64,000 nucleotides of DNA from Pukyongia salina (lineage in GTDB: Bacteria; Bacteroidota; Bacteroidia; Flavobacteriales; Flavobacteriaceae): positions 868,001-932,000 of the forward strand of contig NZ_CP027062.1 in assembly GCF_002966125.1 (NCBI RefSeq), in the 5' to 3' direction. The notes under the pieces were generated by a model. It made no database searches. It was not told the origin of the DNA and was given only the letters and a program-made list of their open reading frames with translations. The translations under genes and the position numbers were made by a program. Below, piece by piece: positions 30,665-54,167 of this stretch (positions are counted from its first letter, which is position 1; every line of letters starts with the position of its first letter).

Positions 30665-30725
30665 TTAACATTAGGATAACTTTCTTATCACGAATTAGTA
30701 ATGTATAGCTAACATCGACTTTACA
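30665..30725 (+). promoter_or_regulatory. Tandem 11-bp direct repeats, candidate Pho box before the lipoprotein/receptor operon
   Basis: Half-sites TTAACA (30665) and ATAACT (30676), then CTAACA (30709) and TTTACA (30720), are spaced exactly 11 bp within each pair, and the two pairs are 44 bp (four turns) apart. This is the arrangement of OmpR/PhoB-type regulator sites and resembles the Bacillus PhoP box, TTAACA-N5-TTAACA. TTCTTTG at 30736-30742 is the likely -7 end, 10 bp after the last half-site. The function is inferred from neighbouring genes. Confidence 0.6.
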
Positions 30726-30806
30726 TTACCGCACTTTCTTTGCCATGGAAATAATTAGAAAAAAGCAATCAAAAAAATAAATAAACACTTTTAAACTAAT
30801 TCAAAC

Positions 30807-32051
30807 ATGAAAAAAATTTATTTACCATTTATAGCTATAGCATTCGCACTTGTTGCTGCAAGTTGTAGTTCGGATGACGGAGGAGCAATTATTCCTACAG
30901 ATGATACCGGAACTCCCGCCGTAGACGTACGTCTAGTTGGCCAGATTACTAGCGATATGACCCTCACCAGTGATGTGATCTGGGAGCTAGAAGGACGTGT
31001 AACCGTTACAAACGGCGCCACACTTACTATCGAACCGGGAACAATTATTAAGGCCTTTGCAGGAACAGGAGCCAATGCTTCTACCCTTATTATTGCAAGA
31101 GGGGCAAAGATCAATGCGGTAGGAACAGCTAGCGCACCTATAATTTTTACTTCAATAGCAGACAATATCGCCATCGGACAAGTTTCCGGATCTAATCTGG
31201 ATGAGAACGACAGAGGACTATGGGGAGGCTTACTTGTATTGGGAAATGCTAAAGTTTCTTTAGATGGTAATGCTACCGAGGCCCAGATTGAAGGGATACC
31301 AGCTTCCGATATTAACGGAAGATATGGTGGAAACGACGATGCAGACAATTCCGGATCTCTGGCCTATATCTCTATACGTCATGGAGGTGCATTAATAGGA
31401 GAAGGAAATGAAATTAACGGACTTACCCTGGGAGGTGTAGGAACTGGTACATCAATCTCTAACATAGAAGTTGTTGGAAACGTAGATGATGGAATAGAGT
31501 TCTTTGGTGGTTCTGTAAATGCTAACAACCTCCTAGTTTGGGCACAGGGAGATGATGGGCTGGATATCGATCAGGCCTACTCCGGAACCATAGACAATGC
31601 CGTAGTAGCACTTGGAGATATTTCGGATCACGCTCTGGAGATCGATGGTCCAGAAGGGTCACTCGAAGGAATGTTCACTATCACTAACCTTACGTTAATA
31701 GGAAACTCTAATACCGAAAACGGAGAGTATGCAGATTATCGTGATGGTGCTATGGGTGTTACAAAGAACGTTCTTGCACGAAATTTCAAAACTGAATCTG
31801 ATGTTGAGTTGGATAATAATGGTGTAGCTCAGAATTTCATTGATGGAAAACTTTCTTTTGAGAACTGGGTAACAGATGTTGATCCAGCCAACGCAATTTT
31901 TGTTGAAAAAACAGGTGAAGGTGAGAACAAGATCATCGTTAACCCAGATTTTACCGAGCGAGCTGCTGCCTGGAGCTCGACGGGTAATAGTGGCGGAGCT
32001 ACTATGAGTGCGTTCTCATGGACATACGCAGCCTCAAGAGGTGCCCTATAA
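30807..32051 (+). CDS. Surface lipoprotein with predicted parallel beta-helix fold, partner of the TonB receptor
   Basis: This 414-aa lipoprotein has a signal ending at Cys20 (LVAASCSSDD). The S-D-D-G stretch after the Cys fits a surface-export type lipoprotein signal of Bacteroidota. The mature region is a series of short beta turns (TVTNGATLTIEPGTII, GAKINAVGTASAPIIFTS, ISNIEVVGNVDDGIEFFGG), typical of a right-handed beta-helix. It is followed by a TonB-dependent receptor after 96 bp with an intervening hairpin. There is no catalytic motif I can name. By analogy with SusD it may capture a ligand for the receptor. The Pho-like boxes upstream suggest a phosphorus-containing ligand. Confidence 0.8.
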   Translation: MKKIYLPFIAIAFALVAASCSSDDGGAIIPTDDTGTPAVDVRLVGQITSDMTLTSDVIWELEGRVTVTNGATLTIEPGTIIKAFAGTGANASTLIIARGAKINAVGTASAPIIFTSIADNIAIGQVSGSNLDENDRGLWGGLLVLGNAKVSLDGNATEAQIEGIPASDINGRYGGNDDADNSGSLAYISIRHGGALIGEGNEINGLTLGGVGTGTSISNIEVVGNVDDGIEFFGGSVNANNLLVWAQGDDGLDIDQAYSGTIDNAVVALGDISDHALEIDGPEGSLEGMFTITNLTLIGNSNTENGEYADYRDGAMGVTKNVLARNFKTESDVELDNNGVAQNFIDGKLSFENWVTDVDPANAIFVEKTGEGENKIIVNPDFTERAAAWSSTGNSGGATMSAFSWTYAASRGAL

Positions 32052-32085
32052 TTATAAATATCATAAGTGTCTCTCTAGAGACGTC

Positions 32086-32123
32086 CAATTGCTCGCTTTA
32101 TTCTTAAAGCGAGCAATTGTTTT
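32086..32123 (+). terminator. 15-bp hairpin between lipoprotein and receptor genes
   Basis: CAATTGCTCGCTTTA pairs perfectly with TAAAGCGAGCAATTG across a TTCT loop, followed by TTTT. It may be an attenuator letting the lipoprotein be made in excess over the receptor, or a 3' stabiliser of the first cistron. Confidence 0.8.
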
Positions 32124-32147
32124 ACAATTTTCAATAGATAATAATAA

Positions 32148-34973
32148 ATGAAAAAGTTAATACTAGCATTAATATTAGGTTTCACGTCATTCTATGTAAT
32201 GGGACAAACAGGAACCGTAAGTGGTAAAGTGATAGACGGTGAATTTAATGATGTACTCGCCTTTGCTAATGTGATCGTTAAAAATACTACCAACGGTACC
32301 ACCACCGACTTCGACGGAGTTTATTCGCTGGAACTCGCTGTAGGCACTTATACCCTTGTTTACTCTTTCGTAGGCTATCAAACCAAAGAAATAAGTGATA
32401 TTGTTGTAGAATCTGGGAAGAATAGTACGATAAATGTAACCCTAAATGTGGGCCAGCTTGATGAAATAGTGATTCGGACTACAGCCAGGAACAATACAGA
32501 ATCTGCCGTTCTCAGTTTCCAGAAAAATTCGGTGAACCTTCTTGACGGCCTATCTATTGAAACCATGCAGAAGACCGGCGCTAACGATATTGCAAGTGCA
32601 GTTAAAAACGTCCCCGGTGTTTCTGTACAAGGCGGAAAGTTTGTTTATGTGAGAGGTCTGGGCGATCGATACACAAAATCAATTCTTAACGGAGTAGATG
32701 TTCCCGGGCTTGATCCAGACAGAAATACATTGCAGCTCGATATCTTTCCTACCCGTATCCTTGAAAATATAATCGTAATAAAATCTGCAACCGCAGATCA
32801 GCCCGCCGATTTTACCGGTGGGGTGGTAGATATTGTAACTAAAGATATTCCGGCAGGCGCCCAGTATAGCCTTTCGCTGGGATTGGGGTATAATTCAGAT
32901 TTTCACTTTAAGGATAACTACCTGGCAGACCAACGCAGTAAAACAGATTTTCTGGGTTTTGATGATGGTCTAAGAGACAATCCTATCCCAACAGCTCAAG
33001 AGATCCCACTCCCACAACAAAATGGAGAGGTAGTTGAGATCTTAACCCGCAGATTTGAACAAAACCTGGCCGCTCAGCGTGAAAAGAGCTTGATGGATAT
33101 GAATTTTTCTGCCACCGCCGGCAATCAATATGCCATTGGTGATAACAGATTAGGCTTTTTAGCATCAATTTCATACCGAAATGAAACCCAATATTACGAT
33201 GAGTATATCGATGGGCAAGTTTGGAGATTGGATGATCAGGATCCTTCGGTTTTCGAATTACGCCCCGATCGAACGCAGACGGGGGAAGTAGGTAACAATA
33301 ATGTACTTATTAGCGGACTGGCCGGACTCTCCTATAAAACTGAAAATTCTAAATATCGATTAAACATTTTGCACATTCAGAATGGAGAATCTGAAGCATC
33401 CATTTTCAGGCAGGTTAATCAGGTAAATAACTCCAACGAGATAAAAAAAGATAACCTTATCTATACGCAACGGTCTATTACTAACGCCTTATTAAGTGGA
33501 AAACATTCGCTTGGTGAGGATGCAGACTGGACCATTGAATGGAAGCTTTCCCCTACTCTTGCCATAATTGATGACAAGGATTTCCGGGTAACACCTTTCA
33601 GGGTCTTTATCGATTCTGAAACGGGGGAAGAAGTATACTCGATCGAACCATCAGAATCTGGCGATGCTTCTCGCTTCTACAGGAATCTGCAGGAAATTAA
33701 TCTTGCCGGTAAACTTGGAATCGACAAAAAACACAAATTATTTGGCTATGATGCGAAGATTAAATTTGGGGGAGCTTACACCTATAAACAGCGTGAATTT
33801 GCCATCGATCAATTTGCCTTTCCCATACTAAACGTCCCATCCAATGCTTATGGCGGGGATCCAAACCAGGTTCTGGCAGACGAAAATATTTTCGATGCAG
33901 ATACCAATAGCGGTACCTTCGTAAGACGAGACTCTAATATTTCAGATACCTTCGATTCGGAGATCACAGTGGCAGCGGGATATATTTCTGAAGAATTTAA
34001 AGTAAACAGCTGGGTCAATGCGATTTTGGGCGTTCGATTCGAAAAATTCGATCTTATATATACAGGAAGAAATCAATCGGGGGATATTTTTGATAATGCC
34101 ACCATCCTGGACAAAGCAGATTTTTTTCCTTCAGCAAATTTAATATTTAACCTGAACGAGGATGAAGACATGAAGATTCGAACATCCTATTCGAGAACCA
34201 CAGCAAGACCTTCGTTTAAAGAAGCGTCTCTGGCCGAAATATTCGATCCCATTAGTAGTTCGTTCTTTATCGGGAATATCGAATTGCAGCCTACCTACAT
34301 AGACAATCTGGATCTCAGATTCGAGAAGTACGGTGAGGAGGGAGATTTCTTCGCCATTAGTGGATTTTATAAATCGTTCACAGACCCTATTGAACTTTCA
34401 TTCATTCGCGGTGCGACTGGTCAATTTACTCCCCTTAATCTCGGTGATGCAACCGTATTTGGAGGTGAAATAGAATTGAGAAAGAATTTGGGTTTTATTC
34501 ACGGATTGGACAACTTTAGCCTTAACGCAAACCTATCGGTGATCGAATCTCAGCAAGAATATAGTGAGGATGAACGTGCGAGCAGACTCGATAACCTGAG
34601 AGTGGGCGAAACACTGGACGATAACAGACAGTTGCAAGGACAATCGCCTTATCTCATCAACCTGGGAATAAATTTCGATGATGATGAAAAAGGCTGGCAA
34701 GCGGGATTATTCTATAATGCTCAGGGTAAAACTTTACAAATTGTTGGTAGTGAAGACATCCCCAATGTCTTCACTTTACCCTATCATAATATAAAACTCA
34801 ACTTGTCTAAATCTTTTGGAAATGACAAAGACCAGAGAATTAGTCTTCGTTTCGACAATATTCTGGATGATGATATAGAGAGTGTTTATAGATCATTCGG
34901 AGCTCAGGATCAATTATATTCCAGATGGAATCCCGGCCAACAAATTAGCCTGGGTTACAGTATTAACTTTTAA
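32148..34973 (+). CDS. TonB-dependent receptor
   Basis: This is a 941-aa outer-membrane receptor. The signal peptide is 1-20 (ending YVMGQ). The carboxypeptidase-regulatory-like domain is about 22-105 (TGTVSGKVIDGEFNDVLAFA). The plug contains KFVYVRGLGDRYTKSILNGV and ATADQPADFTGGVVDIVTKD, the signature of a Bacteroidota receptor subclass different from SusC. The barrel closes with ISLGYSINF. It probably forms a system with the upstream lipoprotein. The gene sits in a block of phosphate transport genes, so import of phosphate, phosphate esters or polyphosphate is a reasonable guess, not shown by sequence. Confidence 0.93.
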   Translation: MKKLILALILGFTSFYVMGQTGTVSGKVIDGEFNDVLAFANVIVKNTTNGTTTDFDGVYSLELAVGTYTLVYSFVGYQTKEISDIVVESGKNSTINVTLNVGQLDEIVIRTTARNNTESAVLSFQKNSVNLLDGLSIETMQKTGANDIASAVKNVPGVSVQGGKFVYVRGLGDRYTKSILNGVDVPGLDPDRNTLQLDIFPTRILENIIVIKSATADQPADFTGGVVDIVTKDIPAGAQYSLSLGLGYNSDFHFKDNYLADQRSKTDFLGFDDGLRDNPIPTAQEIPLPQQNGEVVEILTRRFEQNLAAQREKSLMDMNFSATAGNQYAIGDNRLGFLASISYRNETQYYDEYIDGQVWRLDDQDPSVFELRPDRTQTGEVGNNNVLISGLAGLSYKTENSKYRLNILHIQNGESEASIFRQVNQVNNSNEIKKDNLIYTQRSITNALLSGKHSLGEDADWTIEWKLSPTLAIIDDKDFRVTPFRVFIDSETGEEVYSIEPSESGDASRFYRNLQEINLAGKLGIDKKHKLFGYDAKIKFGGAYTYKQREFAIDQFAFPILNVPSNAYGGDPNQVLADENIFDADTNSGTFVRRDSNISDTFDSEITVAAGYISEEFKVNSWVNAILGVRFEKFDLIYTGRNQSGDIFDNATILDKADFFPSANLIFNLNEDEDMKIRTSYSRTTARPSFKEASLAEIFDPISSSFFIGNIELQPTYIDNLDLRFEKYGEEGDFFAISGFYKSFTDPIELSFIRGATGQFTPLNLGDATVFGGEIELRKNLGFIHGLDNFSLNANLSVIESQQEYSEDERASRLDNLRVGETLDDNRQLQGQSPYLINLGINFDDDEKGWQAGLFYNAQGKTLQIVGSEDIPNVFTLPYHNIKLNLSKSFGNDKDQRISLRFDNILDDDIESVYRSFGAQDQLYSRWNPGQQISLGYSINF

Positions 34974-35000
34974 GAACTATTCTATTTATTGGCCAAAACT

Positions 35001-35046
35001 TAAGCCCTGTTCTCAAGAATTATAGAACAGGGCTTATATTTTTTAT
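35001..35046. terminator. Intrinsic terminator after the TonB receptor gene
   Basis: TAAGCCCTGTTCT pairs with AGAACAGGGCTTA (13 bp, 10-nt loop), followed by TATTTTTT. It also lies just past the convergent MORN-like gene stop. Confidence 0.88.
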
Positions 35047-35059
35047 AGGAATAGAAGTA

Positions 35060-35434
35060 TTATCTAAAGGATACAACTCGAGTATCATCTGCAGACCAGG
35101 TTTTTACTTTAGCAATTTTTGAATTGCGATACGTTACTTCCCTAATCTTGTCGCCTTGGTAGAAATACCAAGTTCCGGTTTTTTCTCCATTGAAATACTC
35201 TGCTTCGGCGGTTTTATTGCCGTTGATATCGTAGCTAGTCCAATTTCCATGCAACTTATTTTCCTGAGTATAATAACCCTTTTGAGCAATTACACCATTA
35301 TCGTGAAACAAGGTAGCTTCAATCAGGTTGTCGTTTAAAACATAGGAATCTTTTTTGCACGTCTTTTTGCATTCTTGCGCAAATGAAATATTTGCGGCCA
35401 TGACAATTACCAGTAAGGTGATTAAATTTTTCAT
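35060..35434 (-). CDS. Secreted MORN-like (YwqK-type) repeat protein
   Basis: This 124-aa protein has a signal peptide (about 1-20, ANISFAQ). After a short Cys/Lys segment (ECKKTCKKD) come three or so repeats of the type G-x-(W/Y)-x-x-Y-x-x-x-G-x-K, for example HGNWTSYDINGNKTAEAEYF and GEKTGTWYFY. These belong to the MORN_2 repeats found in proteins labelled YwqK antitoxin-like. No toxin gene is adjacent, so that label should not be taken literally. It is divergent from the porin gene over a 430-bp regulatory region carrying candidate Pho boxes. Confidence 0.75.
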   Translation of the reverse strand: MKNLITLLVIVMAANISFAQECKKTCKKDSYVLNDNLIEATLFHDNGVIAQKGYYTQENKLHGNWTSYDINGNKTAEAEYFNGEKTGTWYFYQGDKIREVTYRNSKIAKVKTWSADDTRVVSFR

Positions 35435-35479
35435 AGTATATAGGTTTTAATTGTCGACCATATCAAAGATAGAAAAGAA

Positions 35480-35518
35480 GTAACAATTATGAAAGGTTTT
35501 GGTAACGTTATCTTAACA
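35480..35518 (+). promoter_or_regulatory. Four-turn 11-bp half-site array, candidate Pho box (distal)
   Basis: GTAACA (35480), a weak GAAAGG (35491), GTAACG (35502) and TTAACA (35513) fall in an exact 11-bp register. The array points to the plus strand and is about 345 bp before the porin ATG. It could drive a separate short transcript ending at the 35724-35750 terminator. Confidence 0.5.
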
Positions 35519-35723
35519 TTATAAATCTATTTCCTTGTTTTACAATGTTTTATAATTTAAAATTTAACATTGAAAAGTGAACAAATGATATATTTCTTAA
35601 TGTTTTTTTAATGTTGCGATGATAGTAAAACCACACCCCAAGTGTTAATTTGCATCGTCTTGAATGGACAAATACATCTTTTGAAAATCGTTAAGTTTTT
35701 GTCGACTAGATTTCTAAGATGGG

Positions 35724-35750
35724 AGGCCGCTTACTTGTAAGTGGCCTTTT
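35724..35750 (+). terminator. Intrinsic terminator inside the porin upstream region
   Basis: AGGCCGCTTA pairs with TAAGTGGCCT across a CTTG loop (one G-T pair), followed by TTTT. No gene upstream of it on this strand explains it, so it may end an untranslated short RNA or act as a leader attenuator for the porin. Confidence 0.7.
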
Positions 35751-35803
35751 CATTTAATAGGTGTTGATAATTTCTATTTTATGGGTTTAAAGTTAATATT
35801 TAG

Positions 35804-35820
35804 GAAACATTAACTTAACA
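35804..35820 (+). promoter_or_regulatory. Candidate Pho box (proximal) before the porin
   Basis: GAAACA (35804) and TTAACA (35815) are 11 bp apart. TTCTTTG at 35831-35837 begins 10 bp after the second half-site, the same heptamer and the same distance as before the lipoprotein gene. Confidence 0.6.
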
Positions 35821-35864
35821 TTGAGGTTGGTTCTTTGCAGCGACAAAAACTTAGAACGATTTTC

Positions 35865-37091
35865 ATGAAACACCCTTATCTTTTACTCGTGGTCGCCTTA
35901 ATTCTTTTTGGCACTACAAATGCTCAGGAAATAAGTGACACATCTTTTGGTAAAGGGATGATCAATTTTGTTGCGAAAGACAGTTCCTTTAGCGTAAAAT
36001 TTGCCCCAAGATTTCAGGTACGCTATATGGCGGATTGGCAACATGACGGTGACAATTACGGCAGTGCAGAACAAAACTTTCTGGTTAGAAGAGCTCGATT
36101 GAAGTTCGATGGGTTTGTATTCAATCCCAGGATAAAGTATAAAATTGAACTTGGTCTGTCCAACCGTGATATTAGCGGTGCAAACCAGTTCAACCGAAAC
36201 ACACCTCGTTATATTCTGGACGCGGTAATCAAATGGAACTTTTACGAGAATTTCGAATTATGGGCGGGACAAACCAAATTGCCGGGGAACGTAGAACGAG
36301 TAGTTTCTTCCGGTAACCTGCAATTTATTGATCGCTCTATCCTAAACAGTCGTTTTAATATTGATCGTGATGCCGGAATTCAGTTGCGTCATCATACCAA
36401 CCTTGGAGGTGACTTTTTTATACGTGAAAAAATTGCTGTTTCACAAGGGGAAGGCCGAAATGTTACCCAGGGCAATGAAGGAGGGTTACAATATACGGCC
36501 AGGCTGGAACTCCTGCCTTTTGGCTGGTTTAAATCGGGCGGAGACTATTCGCAAAGTGATTTGAAACGGGAGTCCACTCCGAAGTTGATGATAGGAGCTA
36601 CCTACGATTATAACCAGGATGCCGTTAAAACCAGGAGTAACCTGGGTAGTTATATGTTCTTAAGTGATGGATCTCTATATGAAACAGATCAATCTACCAT
36701 CTTTGTGGATGCAATGTTCAAGTATAAAGGGTTTAGCTTTATGGGAGAGTATGCCAATCGGGATGCGGATAATCCTGTGGCGGTAGAAGCAAATGGTTCA
36801 CCAGCTGTGGATAGTGACGGACTTCCAACCGGCGATGTAGTTCTAATTGGAAATTCGATAAATCTACAGGCGGCCTACTTATTCGAAAATAATTACGAGA
36901 TTGCAGCCAGGTTCTCTACTGCAGATTACGATGCAATAACAGGACGGGCAATGGAAGAACAATATACATTAGGCGTGTCTAGATATGTTGTTGGACACAA
37001 GCTTAAAGTGCAGTCTGATTTCACATACGGTACCGCCGGGGGGAATGCAGATTTTTTGGAGTTCAGAATAGGATTCGACGTACATCTATAG
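35865..37091 (+). CDS. Phosphate-selective porin O/P family protein
   Basis: This outer-membrane porin of 408 aa belongs to the OprO/OprP family (phosphate/polyphosphate-selective in Pseudomonas). The signal peptide is residues 1-21 (MKHPYLLLVV...GTTNAQ). The mature protein starts with FGKGMINFVAKDSSFSVKFAPRFQ and contains VRRARLKFDGFVFNPRIKYK and WNFYENFELWAGQTKLPGN, characteristic of this family, and ends DFLEFRIGFDVHL. The ATG at 35865 is preferred because the upstream TTG at 35835 lies in the -7 element. It is followed after 79 bp by a phosphate permease gene, which supports a phosphate role. Confidence 0.88.
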   Translation: MKHPYLLLVVALILFGTTNAQEISDTSFGKGMINFVAKDSSFSVKFAPRFQVRYMADWQHDGDNYGSAEQNFLVRRARLKFDGFVFNPRIKYKIELGLSNRDISGANQFNRNTPRYILDAVIKWNFYENFELWAGQTKLPGNVERVVSSGNLQFIDRSILNSRFNIDRDAGIQLRHHTNLGGDFFIREKIAVSQGEGRNVTQGNEGGLQYTARLELLPFGWFKSGGDYSQSDLKRESTPKLMIGATYDYNQDAVKTRSNLGSYMFLSDGSLYETDQSTIFVDAMFKYKGFSFMGEYANRDADNPVAVEANGSPAVDSDGLPTGDVVLIGNSINLQAAYLFENNYEIAARFSTADYDAITGRAMEEQYTLGVSRYVVGHKLKVQSDFTYGTAGGNADFLEFRIGFDVHL

Positions 37092-37103
37092 AACCCGAAA
37101 GAG

Positions 37104-37120
37104 ATAACAATTTAGTAACA
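37104..37120 (+). promoter_or_regulatory. Candidate Pho box before the PiT gene
   Basis: ATAACA (37104) and GTAACA (37115) are exactly 11 bp apart. TAATTTAA at 37129-37136 is a partial -7 match at nearly the same distance as in the porin promoter. It lies in the 79-bp gap between porin and PiT. Confidence 0.55.
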
Positions 37121-37170
37121 AGTGTGCCTAATTTAATTAAGACATTTGTTGCGTTTTAATAAAAACGAAT

Positions 37171-39411
37171 ATGGATAATCTTTATTTATTAATGATAGTT
37201 GCTCTTGCAGTTCTGGCAATTGCCGATCTGGTTGTGGGAGTAAGTAACGATGCTATCAATTTCCTGAATTCGGCGATAGGATCCAAGGCGATCCCATTTA
37301 AGGCCATAATGGTAATTGCCAGCCTTGGGATATTTATTGGTGCTATTTCATCCAGCGGACTTATGGAGGTAGCTCGTAAAGGGATCTTTGTACCCGGGGA
37401 ATTCTATTTTAACGAGATCATGATCATTTTCATGGCAGTGATGATCACCGATATATTGCTCCTGGACTTCTTCAACACTCTGGGATTACCAACCTCAACA
37501 ACCGTTTCTATTGTTTTCGAATTATTGGGAGCCGCTGTTGTAATGTCTCTGATAAAGATCAGTAATTCTGAGACCGCTGTTTTTGGAGATTTATTTAATT
37601 ATATCAACACAGAAAAGGCGATAGAGATCATCTCGGGGATACTTCTCTCGGTGGTGATTGCCTTTTCGGTAGGTGCGTTTGTACAATATGTATCCAGGTT
37701 AATCTTCACCTTTCATTACGAGCGTAAAATAAAGAATTTCGGGGCCCTCTTTGGCGGGATCGCCCTTACTGCCATAACGTATTTCATCTTTATGAAAGGC
37801 CTTAAGGGTACGCCGTATTACGATGATATGAAGGGATATATCGAAGGAAATGAGTGGTTCATCATTGCCGGTAGTTTTATCCTTTGGACGTTACTTTCAT
37901 TACTTTATATGAGAGTGCTAAAAAAGAATATCCTCATTATCGTGATCGCTGTGGGTACCTTCGGATTGGCTTTGGCATTCTCAGGAAACGACCTGGTAAA
38001 CTTTATCGGGGTGCCTATGGCAGCCTACCACTCATATGAAGCGTGGGCCGCATCGGGTGTTGAGGCCACGGCATTTTCGATGGAAGTACTGGACAAAAAA
38101 GTACCCGCAGAACCCCTGTTATTGTTTATAGCAGGTGGTGTAATGGTTGTAACCTTATGGTTCTCAAAGAAAGCACGTACGGTAGCAGACACCGAGATAG
38201 GTCTTGCGACACAGGATGAAACCAAAGAAAAGTTTAAGCCAAATATGTTGTCCCGAGCCGTTGTGAAAGGGAGTACTAAATTGGCATCCATGCTAGGAGC
38301 AGCGATTCCCAACTCTACTCAGGAAAAAATTAATGCCAGTTTCGAAAAACCAGTGGTTACATTACCGAAACATAAAAACTACGAGCTCCCTGCTTTCGAC
38401 CAGATTCGTGCATCGGTAAACCTTATGGTTGCGGGCGTATTAATTTCGATCGCCACCTCTATGAAATTACCACTGTCTACAACCTACGTCACTTTTATGG
38501 TGGCTATGGGTACGTCGCTGGCCGATAGGGCATGGGGAAGAGAAAGTGCGGTTTACAGAGTTGCAGGAGTTCTTAATGTGATTGGCGGATGGTTCTTTAC
38601 CGCATTTAGCGCCTTCGTGGCAGCCGGAACATTGGCTTACCTCATTTATCTGGCCCCGGCTCCTATGATCGCCGTACTATTATTCCTGGCCATATTATTA
38701 TTAATAAGAAATTACCTTTCTCACAAAAACAAATCGAGTGCGATCACTTCGCCCGATGAATTGAAAAAAGCCGAAAGTAATACGGTTCAGGGAATTATTG
38801 AAGAAAGTGCCGATAATATTGCGAAGACGGCATCGAGAACAAACAAGATCTATTCATCGATTATTGCCAATCTCGCAAAAGAAGATGCTACCAAGCTTAA
38901 GAAAAACAGGTTACGGGTTGATAAGCTCGCCGAGGAAGTAGATGAGCTACGAAATAATATCTTCTACTTCATTAAAAACCTTGATGAAACAAGTGTTCGT
39001 GGTAGTAACTTCTACATCATGGTCCTTGGCTATCTAACCGATGTGGCGCAATCGCTCGAATACATCGCGAAAGTAAGTCATAAACATGTGCGTAATAATC
39101 ACAAGACCTTGCGCTTTAACCAGATCAAGGACCTTCAGAAAATAGATTCGTCTTTCGAACATCTGTTGAAGGATATAGAAACTATTTTCAAAAACCGTGA
39201 GTTCGAAAAATTAGAGGATATTCTTATTAGAAAGGAACGTGCTTTTAGCGACATAAATGCAATGATCGAAACACAGATCACCAGAACCAGAACAGAAGAA
39301 TCGAGTCCAAAGAACACTACTTTGTATTTTAGCCTTCTATTGGAAACAAAAGACCTGGTGACAGCATTGATGAACCTGATGGAAGAATATTATAAGAGCT
39401 ATAAAGGTTAA
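37171..39411 (+). CDS. PiT family inorganic phosphate permease with C-terminal PhoU-like domain
   Basis: This 746-aa inner-membrane phosphate symporter has PHO4/PiT repeats early (VVGVSNDAINFLNSAIGSKA) and again after the central loop (MKLPLSTTYVTFMVAMGTSLADRAWG), with about ten to twelve helices up to residue 520. The remaining 200 residues (about 540-746) are soluble and helical, resembling a PhoU-like/DUF47 domain (KKNRLRVDKLAEEVDELRNN...YFIKNLDE), which in other bacteria is a separate protein encoded beside PiT. Fusion of the two is a notable feature. It follows the OprO/P-like porin and ends in a terminator. Confidence 0.93.
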   Translation: MDNLYLLMIVALAVLAIADLVVGVSNDAINFLNSAIGSKAIPFKAIMVIASLGIFIGAISSSGLMEVARKGIFVPGEFYFNEIMIIFMAVMITDILLLDFFNTLGLPTSTTVSIVFELLGAAVVMSLIKISNSETAVFGDLFNYINTEKAIEIISGILLSVVIAFSVGAFVQYVSRLIFTFHYERKIKNFGALFGGIALTAITYFIFMKGLKGTPYYDDMKGYIEGNEWFIIAGSFILWTLLSLLYMRVLKKNILIIVIAVGTFGLALAFSGNDLVNFIGVPMAAYHSYEAWAASGVEATAFSMEVLDKKVPAEPLLLFIAGGVMVVTLWFSKKARTVADTEIGLATQDETKEKFKPNMLSRAVVKGSTKLASMLGAAIPNSTQEKINASFEKPVVTLPKHKNYELPAFDQIRASVNLMVAGVLISIATSMKLPLSTTYVTFMVAMGTSLADRAWGRESAVYRVAGVLNVIGGWFFTAFSAFVAAGTLAYLIYLAPAPMIAVLLFLAILLLIRNYLSHKNKSSAITSPDELKKAESNTVQGIIEESADNIAKTASRTNKIYSSIIANLAKEDATKLKKNRLRVDKLAEEVDELRNNIFYFIKNLDETSVRGSNFYIMVLGYLTDVAQSLEYIAKVSHKHVRNNHKTLRFNQIKDLQKIDSSFEHLLKDIETIFKNREFEKLEDILIRKERAFSDINAMIETQITRTRTEESSPKNTTLYFSLLLETKDLVTALMNLMEEYYKSYKG

Positions 39412-39433: not shown

Positions 39434-39460
39434 AAACCCCGGCTCATCCGGGGTTTTTTA
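39434..39460. terminator. Intrinsic terminator between convergent phosphate transporter genes
   Basis: AAACCCCGG and CCGGGGTTT form a 9-bp stem with CTCAT loop, followed by Ts. It just overlaps the end of the converging Na/Pi symporter gene. Confidence 0.88.
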
Positions 39461-41203
39461 TTTGTGGTTCTCGAATAACGGATCTTGTTCGCCATACAGC
39501 AGATCGGCGATGGTAATTAATTTTTTTATGGTGTCGTTCACATTGTCCCTGTCGTTTACCAACGAAGAACCCATGTCTACCGTAATAAGGCCTTCGCGTA
39601 TAAGCCGTTCTATTGAATCACTCATATTATGAATCTCTTCCCTGGCCTCGTCACGTAACTTCATTAGCTTTTGATGGTAGATATCTTTATCTTTTTCTTT
39701 TCTGAAGTGATAGATTATACGAAGTACTTTCGCAATCTTCTTACGTAGCTTGTTGTATTCTTTCCTAACATATTCATTTTCCGAGTCGAGGTACAACGCC
39801 ACATTTGGTGCCAGTTCTCTCATATTTCGAAGGATCTCTACCATCTTTCTATTGGCGAGTTTAATTTCGGAAATATGCCTGTTCTGGGCCTCGGTAAGTT
39901 TGAAATTACTTTGGGCCAACGACGCATATCGTATAATCTCTCCGTAGATCTTTTTTACCTTGGTGTGATACAATTCATGGACATCGGTGTGCATATCTTC
40001 GGTAGATCGCTTCAGGATCTTCTTGATCTTCTCATCAGATTTAATATCGGCACGATGAATATTCAACGAGTGCGCCACAATTTCAAAAATTGCGTTCTTA
40101 AACAGGAATTTCGATTCCTTTTCCAGGGAAATAATAAGAGTTTCGGGATATTTCAACACCCGTTTTTCAAGAAACTTGGGTTCGTCTATCTCTTTTTTCG
40201 GCATCTCCCTTTTTGGCACCAATCGCTCCACCAAACGAGCAATCGGATTTACAAACCATACCAACAACAGGGTATTACTTATATTAAAAATGGTATGGAA
40301 CAATGAAATTGCCACGGGAATGGCGGCAGCACTAAGGTAAGGAGAGTCGGAGCCTGTCCATTGTGCAATCCAGCTCACCATTTTTAAGAAAGGATAAAAA
40401 AGTAACAATACCCAAACAACTCCAATTATATTAAAGAGAAGGTGTGCCCGGGCCGTTCGTTTTGCGTGAAAATTAGCCACTATAGCCGCAATATTTGCCG
40501 TAATAGTGGTTCCAATATTTTCGCCCAGAACCATTGCAGCAGCTAGCTCGAAAGGGATCCATCCTTCTGCTGTCATGATAAGAGTGAGAGCCATCGTGGC
40601 ACTAGAGGATTGAATAATTACCGTAAGTAAAGTGCCAATGAATAAGAAGATGAGCACAGACCAGAATCCAAGATCGGTATACCTGGTTAGAAACTCGAGC
40701 ATTTCGGGATTATCATTAATATTAGGTACAGCATCCTTTAAGAACTGCAGCCCAATAAATAAAACGGCAAATCCAATGATAAAGACTCCCCAGTTTTTTA
40801 TGCTTTCTTTTTTCGCAAACGTAAAAGCAAATCCAAATCCCACCAGGGGTAATGCGATAGCGCTCATACTTACTTTAAAACCAAGGATGGTGATGAGCCA
40901 GGCAGTGATTGTAGTGCCAATATTGGCCCCCATGATCACACTAATAGACTCGGTTAAGGTGAGAAGGGAGGCATTGGCGAAGCTAACCACCATAAGGGTG
41001 GTAGCCGATGAAGACTGGATAACCGATGTTATAAAGAATCCCGTAAGTATACCAAAGAACCTGTTCGAGGTCATCGTTGCCAGGATACTTCGCATTTTGT
41101 CTCCCGCGAGCTTCATTAAGGCATCGCTCATCACCATCATTCCGAAGAGAAACAAACCCAGCGACCCAAATAACTGCAACAATTCGGTATATCCGTAATT
41201 CAT
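39458..41203 (-). CDS. Na+/phosphate cotransporter family protein with PhoU-like domain
   Basis: This 581-aa NptA/PF02690-type transporter has two inverted repeats carrying the QSSSAT motif: once in FITSVIQSSSATTLMVVSFA and once in TVIIQSSSATMALTLIM. GANIGTT and GENIGTT follow each. About nine helices fill residues 5-310. Residues 345-570 are a soluble helical PhoU-like domain (SLNIHRADIKSDEKIKKIL, SLAQSNFKLTEAQNRHI). It is convergent with PiT. I found no clear Pho box before its start, so its regulation may differ from PiT. Similar proteins can export as well as import phosphate. Confidence 0.92.
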   Translation of the reverse strand: MNYGYTELLQLFGSLGLFLFGMMVMSDALMKLAGDKMRSILATMTSNRFFGILTGFFITSVIQSSSATTLMVVSFANASLLTLTESISVIMGANIGTTITAWLITILGFKVSMSAIALPLVGFGFAFTFAKKESIKNWGVFIIGFAVLFIGLQFLKDAVPNINDNPEMLEFLTRYTDLGFWSVLIFLFIGTLLTVIIQSSSATMALTLIMTAEGWIPFELAAAMVLGENIGTTITANIAAIVANFHAKRTARAHLLFNIIGVVWVLLLFYPFLKMVSWIAQWTGSDSPYLSAAAIPVAISLFHTIFNISNTLLLVWFVNPIARLVERLVPKREMPKKEIDEPKFLEKRVLKYPETLIISLEKESKFLFKNAIFEIVAHSLNIHRADIKSDEKIKKILKRSTEDMHTDVHELYHTKVKKIYGEIIRYASLAQSNFKLTEAQNRHISEIKLANRKMVEILRNMRELAPNVALYLDSENEYVRKEYNKLRKKIAKVLRIIYHFRKEKDKDIYHQKLMKLRDEAREEIHNMSDSIERLIREGLITVDMGSSLVNDRDNVNDTIKKLITIADLLYGEQDPLFENHK

Positions 41204-54074: not shown

Positions 54075-54159
54075 TTCAAGGGAGGGCAAAAATAAACAAT
54101 AAAATCAAAATTGTTAGTAAATCGCGCTTTCATTTTTACGAATTCCATAACGATAATTT

Positions 54160-54167
54160 TACATTTG
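54160..54167 (+). promoter_or_regulatory. Putative -7 element for prs
   Basis: TACATTTG matches TAnnTTTG, 22 bp before the prs ATG. The -33 region is T-rich but has no clear TTG. Confidence 0.55.

Follow-up and report, generated by a model that had tools for sequence, protein, structure and literature searches.

Which regulator acts on the short repeats that stand before the surface lipoprotein, TonB-dependent receptor, porin, and phosphate permease genes of Pukyongia salina, and which signal would it relay? These genes form a block in a window of 64,000 nucleotides (G000:C1:868001-932000; coordinates are those of the window unless a contig is named), part of a one-contig genome of 3.18 Mb. 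Two to four head-to-tail 11-bp repeats (NTAACATTNNN) precede the lipoprotein/TonB-receptor, porin, and PiT permease genes, and comparison of sequences makes it very probable that they are operator sites of the phosphate response regulator PhoB. Flavobacteria play a major part in recycling phosphorus, both in the sea and in soil (for soil, PMC8115612), and a working matrix combined with a fixed promoter spacing would make Pho regulons readable from genomes.

Direct Repeats in an 11-bp Register

A first-pass annotation of this DNA had described TTAACA-like hexamers in an exact 11-bp register ahead of three units, and all of them are present, both by direct reading and by matrix score (Table 1). 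The half-sites of the lipoprotein promoter are TTAACA (30665), ATAACT (30676), CTAACA (30709), and TTTACA (30720); because the second and third start 33 bp apart and the first and last 55 bp apart, the four lie in a single 11-bp register. Relatives have arrays like the upstream pair ahead of the first gene. The porin promoter has TTAATA (35793), GAAACA (35804), and TTAACA (35815), the first of which the annotation had overlooked, and the PiT promoter has ATAACA (37104) and GTAACA (37115). The -7 consensus of Bacteroidota promoters is TAnnTTTG (PMC9723704). The annotation placed the same heptamer of this type, TTCTTTG, 10 bp beyond the last half-site in the lipoprotein and porin promoters, and it does begin there in each; the -7 element of the PiT promoter had escaped notice.

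Scores were obtained with a position weight matrix (PWM) of 19 columns, built from 147 dimers in the porin, PiT, and first-gene promoters of relatives, the near-identical locus L001 being left out. Because training was anchored on TTTG, only the results for the window, MORN, phoB, and pst are independent of it; the score thresholds (10 to 16) were picked while looking at the data. The four best matches in the window start at 35804, 35502, 30709, and 30665, with the PiT box at 37104 in eleventh place. A score of at least 9 together with TTTG at 18 or 29 bp leaves solely the lipoprotein, porin, and PiT promoters in the 64 kb. At 54147-54165, just ahead of a ribose-phosphate pyrophosphokinase-like gene, there is a match of score 14.8 that shares letters with its own TTTG; it was rejected as probably due to chance.

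A further array, with half-sites at 35480, 35491 (a poor one), 35502, and 35513, had been attributed to the porin along with the 35804/35815 pair. The pair stands as a porin site and the array does not: its best pair lies 67 bp upstream of the divergent MORN-like gene. Among relatives, 36 of 38 MORN promoters have a reversed box scoring at least 13 within 120 bp, and all 15 MORN genes that do not adjoin a porin gene retain a reversed box of at least 12. The 35480-35513 array therefore goes with the MORN gene.

Could such repeats arise by chance in AT-rich intergenic DNA? The absence of a genome-wide excess of the bare patterns, reported below, is what one would expect if they did. Conservation, spacing, and shuffles speak against it. 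In 2,000 dinucleotide shuffles, matches of at least 12 never reached the observed count in the 181-bp and 430-bp intergenic regions, and did so in 1.1% of trials for the 79-bp region between porin and PiT. Chance is refuted for the porin, lipoprotein, and MORN sites; its refutation is weakest for the PiT site in this genome alone, where the relatives decide. As an explanation of the whole, it has a negligible probability.

Conservation and Promoter Spacing

The check proposed with the annotation, comparison of the same intergenic regions in related genomes, shows the boxes to be conserved. Among aligned relatives, the porin promoter reads approximately TTAAYATTNAG GAAACATTNAC TTAACATTNGA, followed by GTTMTTTGCAGCGACAAAAACT, in 49 of 55, and the PiT promoter reads ATAACATTNAG NTAACATT, poorly conserved letters, and then GATATTTGCAAA in 36 of 56. 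Counting pairs of AAC, which requires no matrix, gives 11 bp as the commonest distance in both the porin (62 pairs) and PiT (52 pairs) sets; the first-gene set has 42 pairs at 11 bp and 44 at 33 bp, which is three units.

The distance from the box to the core promoter is quantized. Measured from [AT]AAC[ACG] to TTTG[CT], it is 18, 29, or 40 bp. The porin set has 40, 44, and 22 cases at these three distances and at most 2 at any other; the PiT set has 34 at 29 bp and 33 at 40 bp, followed by 13 at 45 bp and 10 at 14 bp; the first-gene set has 28 at 29 bp and 8 at 40 bp. A box with an in-phase TTTG is found in 49 of 55 porin and 39 of 56 PiT promoters (18/29) of relatives. The sites thus consist of at least two direct-repeat 11-bp units and occupy a fixed position relative to the core promoter.

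Matches in the relatives are also concentrated at the block genes. Across 79 loci (1.54 Mb), 211 of 226 matches of at least 16 lie within 450 bp upstream of a block gene, in either orientation, and 15 lie elsewhere. When each match is assigned to its closest gene, MORN receives 65 reversed matches (38 loci) and, in one locus, 2 forward ones, the porin receives 56 forward matches (50 loci), and PiT receives 53 forward matches (53 loci). With a matrix trained on porin promoters alone, 21 loci still show a forward box at PiT and 37 a reversed one at MORN.

Association with phoB and pst

A cognate regulator is present: the genome has one phoB of this type (L081 type), with phoR adjoining, whose product is its best PhoB (G000:C1:1522733, outside the window) and has Bacteroides PhoB among its best NCBIfam hits. 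This phoB occurs in 57 of 60 family genomes. It lies in the flanks of the block in 3 of 80 relatives and next to pst in 3 of 20 class-wide loci. Of the 30 best-matching loci, 27 have a reversed box in the phoB promoter and 7 a forward one, the reversed box of the present genome scoring 15.3; 120 other genes, taken as a control, gave 1 reversed and 2 forward. The reversed box stands 36 to 41 bp from TATMTTTR in 24 of 26 measured cases, a looser spacing than that of the forward boxes. In a sample too small to carry weight, the PiT box is absent from two of the three genomes in which no phoB was detected, and a match of at least 12 is present in 17 of 21 genomes with phoB. PhoB of Bacteroides fragilis binds a 512-bp pst promoter fragment, for which the accessible part of that report defines no box (PMC3547664).

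Profile searches of the genome for PstS (PF12849) and PhoU (PF01895) gave no match, so a classical Pst/PhoU-gated system was not found, and the enrichment upstream of pst that the annotation proposed as support has no pst genes to be scored on here. The relatives supply them. PhoU was detected in 10 of 60 family genomes and in 58 of 119 class genomes. At six of the ten family PhoU loci, a box of at least 13 precedes the porin and/or pstS (L131, L134, L135, L136, L138, and L139, the box of L138 being weak at 13.2 and that of L139 standing before pstS). Among the four without a box, the contig breaks off in L132 and L133, the pst of L137 is of another kind, and L140 has no separate phoU. Twenty of the 30 listed PhoU loci were examined class-wide, and these contain 23 matches of at least 15, where shuffled sequences gave a mean of 0.7; the matches fall in 10 of the 20 loci. 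Several of those that fall outside the strict rule given in the next section precede outer-membrane genes, one assigned to Porin_O_P by Pfam (L198) and one with no Pfam hit (L209). Boxes thus stand upstream of both pst and phoB in this lineage.

In L131, L135, and L136 the porin, pstSCAB, phoU, and PiT genes follow in a row (gene names were confirmed by Pfam for L131 and assigned by reading and similarity for the others). Because pstSCAB-phoU sits between porin and PiT in these relatives, the block of P. salina resembles that cluster with the Pst part taken out. The identification of the block as a Pho regulon with 11-bp direct repeats of the PhoB/PhoP type, put forward in the annotation, is thus supported by conservation in relatives, by pst/phoU clusters, and by phoB promoters.

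Evidence against PhoB Control

Several observations weigh against PhoB as the regulator. The PhoB protein scores 217 bits with its best NCBIfam model, PhoB, below the curated cut-off of 296. One genome in which no phoB was detected, G048 (82% complete), retains the PiT box. A box with an in-phase TTTG is found in only 19 of 31 first-gene promoters. Half of the class-wide pst loci (10 of 20) lack a match of at least 15, and a strict rule that admits only positions within 300 bp upstream of a recognized pst, porin, or pho gene retains 11 of the 23 matches and leaves 8 of 20 loci with one; the admitted zones make up 14% of the DNA in these loci. A related 11-bp box also exists at moxR/bat, as taken up in the next section.

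The genome shows no excess of the bare patterns. TAAC-N7-TAAC-N8..31-TTTG occurs 14 times against 13, TAACATT-N4-TAACATT with two mismatches 55 times against 75, and TTAACA-N5-TTAACA with at most one mismatch 47 times against 41 for the reversed control; 6 of the 55 are concentrated in about 690 bp of sequence inside the block. Nine matches, and then twenty more chosen from these lists, were inspected further. None of those outside the block with a score of at least 6 has TTTG at 18 or 29 bp at the chosen site; such a TTTG does accompany three weak matches (7.4 to 8.4) at other points of the inspected stretches. The best-scoring of the inspected matches (20.4; L173:2032-2050, G000:C1:2264831-2264849) lies between dnaA and a thioesterase-like gene and has no in-phase TTTG.

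Nor did phoX, the alkaline phosphatase family examined and one of those named for the check in the annotation, prove to be a second target. From 30 loci, L267 (a fragment under the cut-off) and L270 (the second piece of one gene) were excluded, and 9 of the remaining 28 have no visible promoter; a match of at least 14 within 300 bp is present in 1 of the other 19 (L242), and phoX was rejected as a target. In L245 a reversed match overlaps the phoX start. Finally, phosphate depletion did not induce OprP, a member of the PhoBR cluster, in Flavobacterium johnsoniae (-1.3, P 0.25; PMC8115612).

It might be argued from the uninduced OprP, from the phoX promoters, and from the box at a MORN-like gene of unassigned role that the repeats, real and conserved as they are, serve another signal, such as general control of the outer membrane or envelope, with phosphate as one substrate among several. 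The presence of the box at pst-phoU clusters and at phoB itself makes this quite improbable. In favor of PhoB control, the TonB receptor (log2 8.0) and a form II lipoprotein (9.9) of the F. johnsoniae PhoBR operon are strongly induced by phosphate depletion, with a value of 7.6 for another lipoprotein (PMC8115612).

A Look-Alike Box at moxR/bat

The moxR/bat promoter of the same genome carries TTAACC-N5-TTAACA, with TTTG at 29/40 bp (G000:C1:1059383-1059399; L122:3384-3400), and this box is conserved in 23 of 25 readable relatives, out of 30 loci. In Riemerella anatipestifer, DNA affinity purification sequencing of the regulator named PhoP gave TTTAACA as the most conserved letters; the protein binds the moxR promoter and a TonB-receptor promoter and activates the Bat operon (PMC9603813). 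Published primers for this PhoPR pair (PMC5399024) translate to GEEGLK/GYQLGAD and GMGMEP/KGQGLG and are closest by eye to the L083 pair of P. salina (L083 / L128, G000:C1:2291711-2295388); the regulator of this pair has RprY as its best-scoring family (283.5 bits, below the cut-off of 370). From these four primers, compared by eye, the R. anatipestifer "PhoPR" looks like an RprY-type pair rather than PhoBR, so that its name may mislead, and its motif was dropped as direct support for PhoB.

The block boxes themselves might then be operators of an RprY-like regulator and not of PhoB: the motif, the TonB-receptor target, the shared spacing, and the primers can all be read in this way. The moxR box is, however, TTTAACCAATTNTTAACAG-like and scores from -0.6 to 10.7 on the block matrix. 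By column frequencies and scores, the block boxes are not of the TTTAACCAATTNTTAACAG-like type, and it is the block type that accompanies pst, porin, PiT, and phoB. Deletion of phoPR in R. anatipestifer raised pstS about 8-fold, so that PhoPR does not activate pst there. Assignment of the block boxes to an RprY-like regulator is therefore improbable; the moxR/bat box itself probably belongs to one. Because the two types differ at several columns, there are at least two kinds of 11-bp-repeat box, and TTAACA-N5-TTAACA alone does not signify phosphate; the matrix separates the putative PhoB box from its look-alike.

Proposed Mechanism and Phosphate Sensing

If the repeats are PhoB operators, phosphate limitation would lead PhoR to phosphorylate PhoB, which would bind the 11-bp units head to tail, take the place of a -33 element, recruit the main sigma factor, and contact RNA polymerase that holds the TAnnTTTG element. 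Spacing in steps of 11 bp is consistent with contact on a single face of the helix. PhoB would thereby switch on capture at the outer membrane (TonB receptor, lipoprotein, and porin) and uptake at the inner membrane (PiT). Where the boxes face backward, at phoB and MORN, they suggest autoregulation as well as a second mode, perhaps one of repression.

The absence of Pst and PhoU raises the question of how phosphate is sensed. In the structure prediction, residues 540-746 of PiT form a six-helix bundle (AlphaFold mean predicted local distance difference test [pLDDT] score 92), a fold invisible to the sequence searches that were run. In Foldseek, five of six Protein Data Bank matches under E 0.001 are named PhoU or PhoU-like; the sixth is 1sum, which we take to be a PhoU. 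The template modeling (TM) score reaches 0.83, to PhoU of Pseudomonas aeruginosa. A bolder proposal would hold that this is a Pho regulon without Pst or PhoU, that the PhoU-fold tail of PiT serves as the phosphate gauge and signals to PhoR, and that TAACATT is a general Bacteroidia Pho box. Since a Pho box precedes the PiT gene itself, induction would supply transporter and gauge in a single protein, and the frequencies of phoB and PhoU among family genomes given above may be cited in its favor. PiT proteins of similar size (755-758 aa) also occur in the PhoU-bearing relatives L131, L135, and L136. The proposal as a whole is doubtful.

Comparison with Known Pho Boxes

The half-site of the Escherichia coli Pho box is CTGTCAT, where that of the present box is TAACATT. 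The Bacillus PhoP box is TTAACA-N5-TTAACA. Its hexamer is nearly identical to the one found here and its 11-bp spacing is the same, whereas the present box adds a conserved TT after the hexamer. The Bacillus-like shape noted in the annotation is thus upheld as regards hexamer and spacing; TTAACA-N5-TTAACA alone also describes the moxR/bat box, and the longer NTAACATT-NNN-NTAACATT is the more useful consensus.

The E. coli box consists of two 11-nt direct repeats, each with seven conserved and four less conserved letters (PMC4415409). The two systems share head-to-tail 11-bp units, a box near the core promoter, and pst and phoB as targets. They differ in the core element, TAnnTTTG at -7 here instead of a -10 element, and in that the box can shift outward by exactly one 11-bp turn. 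In further contrast to E. coli, the phoB box faces backward here, and PstS and PhoU were not found in this genome.

F. johnsoniae offers a parallel in gene content: its PhoBR operon comprises OprP, PhoR, PhoB, a TonB receptor, and two lipoproteins, the form II protein having a pectin-lyase-like signature, and plant-associated strains likewise lack PstSABC (PMC8115612). There phoBR lies in the cluster, whereas in P. salina it lies elsewhere in the genome. The F. johnsoniae study describes no operator, the words "promoter" and "motif" appearing nowhere in its main text. The R. anatipestifer motif shares the TTTAACA core and likewise comes from a flavobacterium (PMC9603813), but its regulator is most likely RprY-like, with a box of the moxR/bat type. 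A study of marine bacteria whose strains include a flavobacterium marks putative Pho boxes near plcP (PMC4796936). Full-text literature searches, which left most subscription papers out of reach, found no Pho box defined for Bacteroidota.

Genes of the Block

The closest named relatives by PiT are a Flavobacteriaceae metagenome-assembled genome (98% identity) and an Altibacter one (80%). The gene order is dgt (minus strand, named by reading alone), lipoprotein, TonB receptor, MORN-like gene, porin O/P, PiT permease, and Na/Pi cotransporter, with strands as in Table 1. The order of dgt, receptor/lipoprotein, MORN, porin, and PiT is wholly or partly preserved in many of 80 relatives. Gene starts are those of tblastn or of the script.

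Table 1. Boxes, core promoter elements, and genes of the block (window coordinates)
Feature	Coordinates	Strand	Remarks
Upstream Pho-type box pair, lipoprotein/TonB-receptor unit (TTAACATTAGG ATAACTT)	30665..30682	+	PWM 15.2, window rank 4
Promoter-proximal Pho-type box pair, lipoprotein/TonB-receptor unit (CTAACATCGAC TTTACATT)	30709..30727	+	PWM 15.3, rank 3; TTTG at +18
-7 element TTCTTTG, lipoprotein unit	30736..30742	+	TAnnTTTG type; starts 10 bp past last half-site
Surface lipoprotein	30807..32051	+	Fold predicted to be beta-rich; the form II lipoprotein of F. johnsoniae is its likely counterpart
TonB-dependent receptor	32148..34973	+	Pfam Plug, TonB barrel, CarbopepD_reg_2
MORN-like small secreted protein	35060..35434	-	Pfam MORN_2 under its cut-off; promoter boxes point away from gene
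Array of four 11-bp units pointing away from MORN gene	35480..35520	+	Best pair 35502-35520, PWM 20.6, rank 2
Three 11-bp units, porin promoter (TTAATATTTAG GAAACATTAAC TTAACATT)	35793..35822	+	PWM 22.2 and 14.1; 49/55 relatives aligned
-7 element TTCTTTG, porin	35831..35837	+	Starts 10 bp past last half-site
Phosphate-selective porin O/P family gene	35865..37091 (ATG 35865)	+	PF07396
Pho-type box of PiT permease (ATAACAATTTAGTAACA)	37104..37120	+	PWM 12.1, rank 11; TTTG at +29
-7 element ACATTTG, PiT	37142..37148	+	21 bp (10 + 11) past last half-site, one 11-bp turn further out
PiT phosphate permease	37171..39411	+	PF01384; C-terminal PhoU-fold tail 38788-39408
Na/Pi cotransporter family gene adjoining block	39458..41203	-	PF02690, TIGR00704

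No box upstream of the Na/Pi cotransporter gene is among the 40 best matrix matches of the window. A Pfam search with the lipoprotein gave no hit. Its structure model (mean pLDDT 84.5) is beta-rich, with weak matches to pectin-type beta-helices (best E 0.0017, query TM 0.28); the predicted fold agrees with a likely identity as the form II lipoprotein of F. johnsoniae without proving it.

Between the -7 element and the ATG of the porin gene, the stretch at 35838-35856 (CAGCGACAAAAACTTAG) is about as well conserved across relatives as the box. It was not found in the other block promoters inspected and is a candidate initially transcribed or leader element.

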